Shown piece by piece: positions 12,983 through 15,877 of a stretch of 64,000 nt of DNA. Positions within the stretch are counted from its first letter, which is position 1; each line of letters starts with the position of its first letter. The DNA lies in assembly GCA_021792555.1 (NCBI GenBank), contig JAJYUL010000008.1, positions 1 through 64,000 of the forward strand. The letters are read 5' to 3'. Position numbers and translations under genes: made by a program. Origin of the DNA: Pseudomonadota bacterium. GTDB lineage: Bacteria; Pseudomonadota; Gammaproteobacteria; Steroidobacterales; Steroidobacteraceae. The notes below the pieces were generated by a model that did no database searches, was not told the DNA's origin, and worked only from the letters and a program-made list of their open reading frames with translations.

Positions 12983-15877
12983 ATGCGATTGCTGCGACTG
13001 CTGTGCCTGTCTGTGCTGATTGTGCCGTTCACCCTGGCCGCTGCGGCCGCGCCGCCCGGCCCGAGCCGCCCGCCTGAGAGGCGGCCGCTGCCGGCCGGGA
13101 CCGCCGTCGCGGCGCACATCGCCCGGCAGGCCGCGGCGCTCGAGTCGAACCCGACCTGGGCGGCGACGCTCGCGCGCATCGCCAGCAGCGTCGTGTCGAT
13201 CAACTTCAATCAGGACCGCGCCTTCGATACCGACGTCAACGAGACGGCCGAGGCGACCGGCTTCGTGGTCGACGCCAAGCGCGGCATCATCCTCACCAAC
13301 CGCCACGTGGTCACGCCGGGCCCGGTGACGGCCACGGCGACCTTCCTCGACCGCGAGCAGATCCCGATCTATCCGATCTACCGCGATCCGGTGCACGACT
13401 TCGGCTTCTATCGCTTCAACCCGAAGCTGCTGCACTACATCCATCCCAAGGCGCTGAAGCTCGATCCGGCGGGCGCGCGGGTCGGCCGTGAGATCCGCGT
13501 CGTCGGCAACAACGCCGGGGAGCAGCTCTCGATCCTGGCCGGCACGCTCGCGCGGCTGCACCGCCGCGCCCCGGACTACGGGTTCGGCAACTACAACGAC
13601 TTCAACACGTTCTACCTGCAGGCCGCCTCCGGGACCTCCGGCGGGTCCTCCGGCTCCCCTGTGATCGACATCCGCGGCAACGTGGTGGCGCTCAACGCCG
13701 GCGGCGCGAGCAACGCCGCCTCGAGCTTCTACCTGCCGCTCGCGCCCGTGCAGCGCGCGCTGAAGCGGATCGAGGCGGGCAAGCCCGTCACGCGCGGCAC
13801 GCTGTACACGGTGTTCCATTACACCCCGTTCGATGAGCTGGAGCGTCTCGGCCTGCCGCGCGCGGTGGAGGCGCAGGTCCGCAAGGCCTATCCGCAGCGC
13901 ACGGGCATGCTGGTGGTGAGCAACGTGCTGCCCGGCTCGCCGAGCGCGCGGGTGCTGCAGCCGGGGGACGTCCTGGTGCGGGTCGACGGGCACTACGTGA
14001 CGACGTTCTGGCCGCTCGAGCGCCTCCTCGATCGCTCGGTGGGCCGTCAGGTCCACCTCGAGCTGCAGCGCGGAGGAGAGAAAATCTCCGTCACGCTGCC
14101 GGTCGGCAATCTCAATGCCATCACGCCCGATGCCTACGTGCAGTTCGGCAACGCGGTGGTCAACACGCTCTCCTACGAGATGGCGCTGCAGCTGAACGTG
14201 CCGCCACGCGGGGTATGGGTCGCCAATCCCGGCTTCGTGTTCGGCGCGGCCGGCGTGCCGCGCGGGGCGGTGATCCACAGCATCGACTCCTGGCCGATCG
14301 ACACCGTGCAGGACTTGCGCCGGGCGATCTCGAAGCTCGCCAACGGCCAGTACGCCACCGTGCGCTTCACGCTTGCCACCGATCCCAACAGCACCCAGCT
14401 CGCCTACTTCCGCATGGACCGGCGCTGGTTCCCCGCCGAGTACTGCGTGCGCAACGACGAGCTCGGCATCTGGCCGTGCACGCCGCTGCCCGCAGGGCCG
14501 CCCCCGCCGCCGCACCCGGTGATGTCCACCGGTTTCCCGGTCTACCGCAACGCGCTGCTGAACCGCCTGGCCCACTCGCTCGTGTCGGTGACCTTCAGCA
14601 TGCCGTACTCGGTCTCCGGGGTGACCGAGCACTACTACCACGGCACGGGCGTGGTGGTGGACGCCAAGCGCGGCTGGGTGGTGGTGGACCGCAACACGGT
14701 GCCGGTCTCCCTCGGGGACGTCACGATCACCTTCGCCGGGACGCTGCAGGTGCCGGGCCGCGTGGTCTACGTCAGCCCCATCCACAATCTGGCCGTGGTC
14801 GCCTACGATCCGCGGCTGATCGGCTCGACGCCGGTGCGCTCGGCGCAACTGGTGCCGCAGCGCCTGCAGGCGGGCGAGCCGATCGACGTGGTCGGCATCG
14901 GCGGGGACAACGATCTGCATTTCCGCAGCACCCAGGTCTCGAGCATCGAGCCGCTCGAGCTGCCGCTCTCGCGCACCATGCGCTTCCGCGACACCAACAT
15001 CGAGAGCATCCAGCTGGTCAATCCGCCGGACAACTTCGATGGGGTCCTCACGAACGCGCACGGGCAGGTGCTCGGGCTGTGGTCGAGCTTCGCGTTCGAT
15101 ACCGCCAATGGCGTGGGCCAGGATCTGCAGGGCGTGCCGATCGCGCCGGTGCGCGACATGATCGAGCGCTTGCGCAGCGGCCGGCCGCTGCATTCCCTCG
15201 ACGTCGAGCTCGCGCTGACTCCGCTCGCGAGCGCGCAGCTGATCGGGCTCGCGCCCGCCTGGGCCGAGCGGCTCGCCGCGCACAGCGCCACCCGGCGCGT
15301 GGTGCTGACGGTGATCCGCACCACCGGCGGCTCGCCGGCCTCCCGGCTGCTCGAGCCCGGCGACCTGCTGCTCGCGATCGACGGGCACGTGGTGACGCGC
15401 TTCGAGCAGGTCGAGCAGGCCACCGCGGGGCGCAGTTCGGTGCGCCTGACGATCTGGCGCGGCCGGCAGGCCCTGACCCTGACCGTACCGACGGTAGTGC
15501 TCTCCGGTACGGGCCTGCACCGCGTGGTCGAATGGGCGGGCGCGACGCTGCAGGCGCCGTTCCACTCCATGCTGGCGCAGCGCGGTGTCCCGCCGGTCGG
15601 GGTGTACGTCGATGATTTCGACTACGGATCGCCGGCGGCCCGCTATGGGCTGTATTCGGGGCTGCGGATCGTGGCGGTCGACGGCAAGCCGACGCTTGAC
15701 CTCGATGCGTTCCTGCGCGCCGTGGCGAACCGTCCGGATCACTCCTCGGTGCGCATCACCGCGCTCGGCTGGAACAACGCCCCGCAGGTGATCACCCTGA
15801 CGCTCGACGATCACTATTGGCCGGCGTACGAGCTGCTGCGCACCGCGCACGGGTGGGTGCGGCGCGCGCTGAAGTAG
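12983..15877 (+). CDS. Nma111-like double trypsin/PDZ serine protease
   Basis: A 964-residue exported protein with a signal peptide (about 1-22). The first protease domain (about 55-270) has a full triad: His108 in LTNRHVV, Asp139 in VHDFGF and Ser225 in GTSGGSSGSPV. Two PDZ-like segments follow (about 300-480). A second protease-like domain (about 525-730) has lost the triad: VVDRNTV replaces the His motif and DNFDGVL the Ser motif. More PDZ-like sequence fills 770-950. Tandem HtrA units with a dead second copy and the GTSGGSSGSPV motif are features of the yeast Nma111 family. The substrate is unknown; envelope quality control is a guess. ATG at 12983 follows GGGGACAG. Confidence 0.8.
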   Translation: MRLLRLLCLSVLIVPFTLAAAAAPPGPSRPPERRPLPAGTAVAAHIARQAAALESNPTWAATLARIASSVVSINFNQDRAFDTDVNETAEATGFVVDAKRGIILTNRHVVTPGPVTATATFLDREQIPIYPIYRDPVHDFGFYRFNPKLLHYIHPKALKLDPAGARVGREIRVVGNNAGEQLSILAGTLARLHRRAPDYGFGNYNDFNTFYLQAASGTSGGSSGSPVIDIRGNVVALNAGGASNAASSFYLPLAPVQRALKRIEAGKPVTRGTLYTVFHYTPFDELERLGLPRAVEAQVRKAYPQRTGMLVVSNVLPGSPSARVLQPGDVLVRVDGHYVTTFWPLERLLDRSVGRQVHLELQRGGEKISVTLPVGNLNAITPDAYVQFGNAVVNTLSYEMALQLNVPPRGVWVANPGFVFGAAGVPRGAVIHSIDSWPIDTVQDLRRAISKLANGQYATVRFTLATDPNSTQLAYFRMDRRWFPAEYCVRNDELGIWPCTPLPAGPPPPPHPVMSTGFPVYRNALLNRLAHSLVSVTFSMPYSVSGVTEHYYHGTGVVVDAKRGWVVVDRNTVPVSLGDVTITFAGTLQVPGRVVYVSPIHNLAVVAYDPRLIGSTPVRSAQLVPQRLQAGEPIDVVGIGGDNDLHFRSTQVSSIEPLELPLSRTMRFRDTNIESIQLVNPPDNFDGVLTNAHGQVLGLWSSFAFDTANGVGQDLQGVPIAPVRDMIERLRSGRPLHSLDVELALTPLASAQLIGLAPAWAERLAAHSATRRVVLTVIRTTGGSPASRLLEPGDLLLAIDGHVVTRFEQVEQATAGRSSVRLTIWRGRQALTLTVPTVVLSGTGLHRVVEWAGATLQAPFHSMLAQRGVPPVGVYVDDFDYGSPAARYGLYSGLRIVAVDGKPTLDLDAFLRAVANRPDHSSVRITALGWNNAPQVITLTLDDHYWPAYELLRTAHGWVRRALK

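Follow-up and report, generated by a model that had tools for sequence, protein, structure and literature searches.

A tandem HtrA-type protease gene

We analysed a 64,000-nucleotide stretch of DNA from a Steroidobacteraceae bacterium (Pseudomonadota; GenBank assembly GCA_021792555.1, contig JAJYUL010000008.1, positions 1 to 64,000), referred to here as the window, and focused on the gene at positions 12983 to 15877. This open reading frame (ORF) is genuine and conserved, and it carries an HtrA unit, made of a protease domain, a PDZ domain and a PDZ_1-type PDZ domain, twice in tandem. An earlier note on this DNA had read the product as an Nma111-like double HtrA protease with a dead second domain. 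The architecture agrees with that reading (two units in about 1000 amino acids, first triad intact, second dead, PDZ_1 in each half), but Ser225, which the note took as the catalytic residue, does not.

Conservation was counted over 58 aligned rows, which are near-full-length loci, the window included, from genus/order, class and phylum searches. They comprise 57 distinct sequences (L013 equals L041), 45 at 90% identity and 22 at 70%; fragments (e.g., L031, L070 and L072), further close loci and order-level members beyond 30 loci lie outside the counts. The features are as follows.

12983..15877, plus strand: whole gene, 964 amino acids; ORF whose homologues match over nearly the whole length
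12983..13051, plus strand: putative Sec-type signal peptide, about residues 1-23; by eye, from charge, a hydrophobic run and an Ala-rich end
13157..13777, plus strand: protease domain 1, about residues 59-265, active-type triad; Trypsin_2 E 8.6e-23, HhoA 5t63 E 1.8e-17
13304..13306, plus strand: His108, predicted catalytic; His in 58/58 rows
13397..13399, plus strand: Asp139, predicted catalytic; Asp in 58/58 rows
13649..13651, plus strand: Ser223, predicted catalytic nucleophile; alignment with HhoA GNSGGP, Ser in 58/58 rows
13820..14107, plus strand: PDZ 1, about residues 280-375; PDZ_6 E 6.6e-10
14117..14416, plus strand: PDZ 2, PDZ_1-type, about residues 379-478; PF12812 E 1.6e-13
14444..14479, plus strand: Cys488-Cys499, inter-half C-x10-C motif, candidate disulfide; both Cys in 58/58 rows
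14543..15187, plus strand: protease-like domain 2, about residues 521-735, triad lost; Trypsin_2 E 5.9e-6, predicted fold Z about 21 to HtrA
14693..14695, plus strand: Asn571 at the His position (hhalign); N 48, D 5, S 3, T 1, Y 1 in 58 rows
14786..14788, plus strand: Asn602 at the Asp position (hhalign); N 53, D 5 in 58 rows
15035..15037, plus strand: Phe685 at the Ser position (hhalign); F 34, Y 8, V 7, L 4, I 2, G 1, R 1, M 1 in 58 rows
15215..15490, plus strand: PDZ 3, about residues 745-836; PDZ_6 E 5.5e-9
15506..15802, plus strand: PDZ 4, PDZ_1-type, about residues 842-940; PF12812 E 1.4e-7

On the full protein, Pfam reports two Trypsin_2, three PDZ_6 and two PDZ_1 (PF12812) matches. A piecewise scan gives the order protease, PDZ, PDZ_1, protease-like, PDZ, PDZ_1, and the best families on four separate pieces are PDZ_6, PDZ_1, PDZ_6 and PDZ_1, that is, a PDZ pair after each protease domain. 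The PDZ count, which the earlier note had put forward for checking, is thus four. PF12812 scores well above threshold on the full protein (E 1.1e-20, 73.8 bits, cut-off 28) and is present in 28/28 members of the homologue alignment; it is not exclusive to double proteases, since some ordinary proteins of about 500 amino acids pass the cut-off, weakly. Trypsin_2 is borderline on half 2, at 27.5 bits when this half is scanned alone (E 5.9e-6; just below the 27.6 cut-off) and at 27.9 bits in the genome scan, just above it. A profile-profile comparison of the two halves by hhalign aligned 427 columns with an E-value of 8.4e-48 and 26% identity.

The first half retains an intact triad

The best solved relative of the first half, HhoA (5t63), has a GNSGGP motif which phmmer aligned with G221-S-S-G-S-P226 of our protein. 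Because of this match, the catalytic Ser is assigned to Ser223, and position 225 is the second Gly of the HhoA motif. His108 and Asp139, named by the earlier note as triad members, are confirmed and, like Ser223, invariant in the 58 rows, the window included. Position 225 is Ser in 55/58 rows and Ala in 3/58. A role of Ser225 as nucleophile was ruled out by the HhoA alignment.

The Ala-bearing homologues are L060, L062 and L103, in which the motif reads GGSSGAPV with Ser223 intact. That they could be dead in both halves was considered and rejected, given that the nucleophile position is invariant.

The second half has lost its triad but is maintained

The hhalign comparison pairs H108 with N571, D139 with N602 and S223 with F685. 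Across the 58 rows, half 2 never has His or Ser at the respective triad positions, and Asp at 602 is kept in 5/58. The loss of His and Ser stated in the earlier note is thus seen in every row; it was incomplete as a description, since the Asp has gone too in most of them (N602 in the window). The replacements and other residues around the dead site are well kept, namely P599 (58 rows), D569 (56), H601 (55), T572 (53), N602 (53), R570 (52) and N571 (48).

We then asked for the fold of this half. The full-length AlphaFold2 model, built with 16 sequences, is of middling quality, with a predicted local distance difference test score (pLDDT) of 63.2 and a predicted template modelling score (pTM) of 0.43. 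All 50 of the fold matches listed begin at residues 520-527, so that they test half 2 and not half 1. Among them 8kic_A, an HtrA protease with PDZ, covers residues 521-840 of the query (Z 21.5, root-mean-square deviation (rmsd) 6.0, 284 residues), and some matches extend to residue 940 at an rmsd of 9 to 12. The protease domain of MamO (5hma) is also found, with a Z of 19.5 and an rmsd of 3.2 over 185 aligned residues, at rank 41 of the 50 listed. The claim that domain 2 keeps the protease fold pattern is thus borne out by a predicted fold that matches HtrA proteases at a Z of about 21; failure of the second half to fold as a protease was looked for and not found.

To see how this half evolves, we used a Nei-Gojobori script to compute the ratio of nonsynonymous to synonymous substitution rates (dN/dS) for 8 within-genus comparisons. 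The dead protease domain gave values of 0.11-0.24, the live domain 0.00-0.17 and the PDZ domains 0.07-0.52. In the 26 rows with less than 60% identity, the live protease domain averages 62% identity to the window protein, the dead one 40% and the PDZ domains 36-42%. Since the dN/dS of the dead domain falls within the spread seen for the PDZ domains, half 2 is under purifying selection and is maintained, not as an enzyme of the HtrA type.

Putative signal peptide and junction cysteines

The N-terminus is signal-peptide-like by eye, in line with the secreted type of protein described in the earlier note, and a hydrophobic N-terminal stretch is visible in most homologue rows; 7/58 rows lack an ATG candidate. 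In L064 and L103 the signal peptides end in a lipobox-like stretch with Cys (LFLTSC and LMSLTAC, respectively), and these two proteins may be lipoproteins. The congeners L019, L020, L022 and L026-L029 carry a Pro/Ala-rich stretch of variable length between the signal peptide and protease domain 1.

Of the three Cys in the window protein, one lies in the putative signal peptide and two, C488 and C499, after PDZ 2 between the halves. Exactly two Cys follow residue 55 in 54/58 rows. Given that the protein is putatively exported, a disulfide is the natural reading, and C488 and C499 probably form one, which would make the junction more rigid in an oxidising compartment such as the periplasm. The literature on Nma111/DEG7-type proteases that we consulted does not mention this pair, although no search was aimed at the cysteines. 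In yeast and Arabidopsis sequences, which we take as unverified, the aligned positions hold no Cys, with 15 and 13 Cys overall, respectively. This absence, as far as the unverified sequences go, fits the reducing compartments of the eukaryotic proteins.

Origin of the two halves

For the tree, 25 of the 58 rows were split into halves and combined with 25 DegP-type proteins in an alignment of 400 columns. The DegP-type outgroup is narrow, consisting of one protein of the own genome (L106) and 24 same-phylum loci from a PF12812 search, retained by a motif filter from 29 loci tried. The tree resolves first halves, second halves and DegP-type proteins as distinct groups, with supports of 99.9/100, 99.5/100 and 100/100. 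This clean separation points to an old duplication and not a recent fusion; on these sequences, one duplication before the sampled members diverged explains the tree.

L104 and L105 belong to one genus; their frames are 918 and 900 amino acids long, and they are the most divergent members (28-29% identity to the window protein). They are basal in both halves of the tree that includes the DegP-type set and nested among the first halves in a second tree, built without the DegP-type rows; these placements likely reflect long-branch effects.

With the unverified eukaryotic sequences, the window protein shares 36% identity over 932 residues in the case of yeast and 44% in the case of Arabidopsis, the latter across 522 residues of half 1. 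In the second tree the two fall among bacteria in both halves, which we take as a lead only. Supports at the nodes that hold these sequences run from 12 to 99, mostly below 65, and the two eukaryotes group together in the second halves (90) and not in the first halves. Such a placement would fit a bacterial origin and does not establish it.

Distribution and gene neighbourhood

The double protease is stable in the order of the window and patchy elsewhere in the class. In a sample of 60 genomes of the order, the own genome included, 55 have a match below 1e-100 (33/37 in the genus and 22/23 in the rest of the order); among the 36 genomes with a completeness of 90% or more and a contamination of 5% or less, G048 alone is without a match. 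At 1e-40, matches are found in 21/276 genomes of the class and in 5/398 of a phylum sample (own genome included in each), the latter all from the same class. A contig search with the single window protein yielded 19 loci, 57-98% identical.

Close single-domain homologues, named in the earlier note as a sign of a recent unrelated fusion, were looked for and not found: in both genome sets (276 and 398), the frames that hold 1e-40 matches are at least 900 amino acids long, except in G328, where two partial matches each run to the end of a short contig. Viral contigs scanned with the homologue alignment gave 10 pattern matches and no relative. Among plasmids, matches in 18 records cover 29-40% of the query at 24.5-28.3% identity, and none covers 80%. 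The genome of the window also holds a single-unit HtrA-like match (L002, G000:C70:76646-77683) with one TGA inside the matched region.

Upstream of the protease gene, NCBIfam names GcvH, GcvPA and GcvPB; downstream, it names an L-threonylcarbamoyladenylate synthase, and the next gene matches diaminopimelate decarboxylase below the cut-off. The small gene directly upstream received no NCBIfam name, and from its motif we read it as a putative dgkA. The intergenic gaps flanking the protease gene are 22 and 21 base pairs. A gcvPB gene of the same orientation precedes the protease gene in 10/13 related loci compared; the other three, L045, L048 and L051, keep the downstream neighbours. Among loci from more distant genomes, gcvPB is upstream in 7/20; L112 keeps dgkA, the synthase and the decarboxylase without gcvPB. 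Besides the protease, 12/20 distant loci share 0 of 15 window ORFs tested (at most 6 kb per side, some cut by contig ends). Overall, the gene context gives no functional clue.

Proposed function and alternatives

We propose that the gene product is an HtrA-superfamily serine protease that serves quality control in the periplasm and has the Nma111/DEG7 architecture, in which half 1 cuts envelope proteins, the dead half has a structural or oligomerising role and a disulfide holds the junction; we put the probability of this reading at about 0.6. The signal peptide would direct the protein across the inner membrane, where half 1, with its intact and invariant triad, would cleave unfolded or misassembled envelope proteins through His108, Asp139 and Ser223. 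By analogy with HtrA biology, the PDZ domains may offer substrate ends or gate the active site. The whole protease-PDZ-PDZ unit would have been duplicated before the sampled members diverged, its second copy then losing the triad and being retained for a non-catalytic job, of which the best supported is the building of an oligomer, as reported for DEG7. The disulfide between Cys488 and Cys499 would brace the junction between the two halves in the oxidising periplasm.

Several observations speak against this proposal. At the trimer-contact site, which we take to be that of Phe278 in HtrA1, Phe is present in 25/25 DegP-type proteins, and it is replaced by Ala or Gly in 25/25 first halves and by non-aromatic residues in 23/25 second halves (Tyr in 2/25). 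Since this Phe is replaced in both halves, any oligomer probably differs from the canonical HtrA trimer. Trimerisation via the dead domain is reported for DEG7 only, and its extension to our protein is by analogy. Moreover, the protease fold of half 1 rests on sequence similarity, its model, built with 10 of 20 available sequences, being poor, with a pLDDT of 55.6; the top fold match is a PDZ domain (Z 13.3, 103 residues), and matches extending into the protease domain have an rmsd of 6 or more.

The non-catalytic job of half 2 could also be allosteric, the remodelled cleft sensing a substrate or ligand and switching half 1 on, as MamO activates MamE in trans. The dead site does not look like random decay, since P599, D569, R570, T572, H601 and N602 are kept in 52-58 of the 58 rows, and MamO provides a precedent (PMC4794232), its structure 5hma being among the half-2 fold matches cited above. 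MamO, however, matches half 2 no better than other HtrA proteases do, as its rank indicates, and in DEG7, the nearest characterised architecture, the reported role is trimerisation (PMC4754418). We consider an allosteric partner doubtful as an account of half 2, and an oligomerising half remains the preferred reading.

Two further alternatives concern where the protein comes from and what it serves. The low identity between the halves (26% over the 427 columns) would suit a fusion of two different HtrA genes better than duplication of one unit. The halves nevertheless match end to end, PDZ_1 included, and share a branch apart from the 25 DegP-type proteins at 100/100, in a comparison with a narrow DegP-type set; we regard such a fusion as very unlikely. 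As for a service to glycine cleavage or phospholipid recycling, suggested by the place after gcvPB and a dgkA-like gene, it could draw on the short gaps and on the 10/13 related and 7/20 distant loci with gcvPB upstream, but the protease does not travel with these neighbours, since 12/20 distant loci share none of the 15 ORFs. We give this idea almost no credence.

On a wider scale, we tentatively suggest, while thinking it somewhat more probable that events ran otherwise, that duplication and death of the second half took place in bacteria, in a periplasmic protein held by a disulfide, and that the two-half enzyme, already complete, was afterwards acquired by eukaryotes and moved to the nucleus or the chloroplast, where the Cys pair was lost. 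If this is true, yeast Nma111 and plant DEG7 are relocated bacterial periplasmic quality-control enzymes. A bacterial branch with a dead second half, stable in one order, offers simple hosts for asking what the dead half does, and the 22 representatives at 70% identity are material for rooting the eukaryotic proteins. The invariant Cys pair at the junction is a small feature that can be tested directly.

Comparison with known proteases

The window protein is a well-supported new member of the known Nma111/DEG7 type (Deg/HtrA clade III), bacterial relatives of which are already published. It has two HtrA protease domains in a chain of about 1000 amino acids, four PDZ domains, an intact first and a degenerate second triad, and PF12812.

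With DegP/DegQ (Do family), the window protein shares protease and PDZ domains and a His-Asp-Ser triad. DegP and DegQ are periplasmic; they have one unit, whereas the window protein has two. Against the Do-family model TIGR02037 it scores 120.7 bits, below the cut-off of 416.2, and its halves fall outside the 25 DegP-type proteins in the tree (100/100). The long loop that follows the first strand in the five DegP-type rows compared is absent from it. The own genome has further frames, of 523 and 396 amino acids, with Trypsin_2 matches above the cut-off.

Yeast and other fungal Nma111 proteins have the double HtrA layout. The earlier note had associated this layout with fungi, which is right and too narrow, given that plant DEG7 has it as well (PMC3473262, PMC4754418) and that bacterial relatives of yeast Nma111 are already published. 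Like the window protein, Nma111 (Ynm3) is described in PMC5982838 as an HtrA-type protease with PDZ1, and it is listed there among the core yeast cell-death factors. It is called nuclear (in the title of a cited paper) or cytoplasmic (PMC5982838), while the window protein has a putative signal peptide. The bacterial relatives are mentioned in PMC5982838 and PMC13304501, and the latter, citing Kaushal et al. 2023, states that the Desulfatibacillum alkenivorans orthologue can replace Nma111p. A news piece on Kaushal et al. 2023 (PMC10565123) refers to bacteria in general terms, and Nma111 is not mentioned in it.

Plant DEG7 resembles the window protein in having one active and one degenerate protease domain and four PDZ domains, and an origin by duplication and decay has been proposed for it (PMC3473262 and PMC4754418). 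According to the same papers, the DEG7 homotrimer forms through the degenerate protease domain, and DEG7 is counted among the photosystem II repair proteases (PMC4754418). DEG7 resides in the chloroplast stroma, whereas the window protein is putatively periplasmic. Finally, the magnetosome pseudoprotease MamO is, like half 2, an HtrA-type domain that is dead, and it has kept a role other than catalysis (PMC4794232). As described there, MamO is a separate protein that binds metal and activates MamE, whereas the dead domain of the window protein is fused to a live one.

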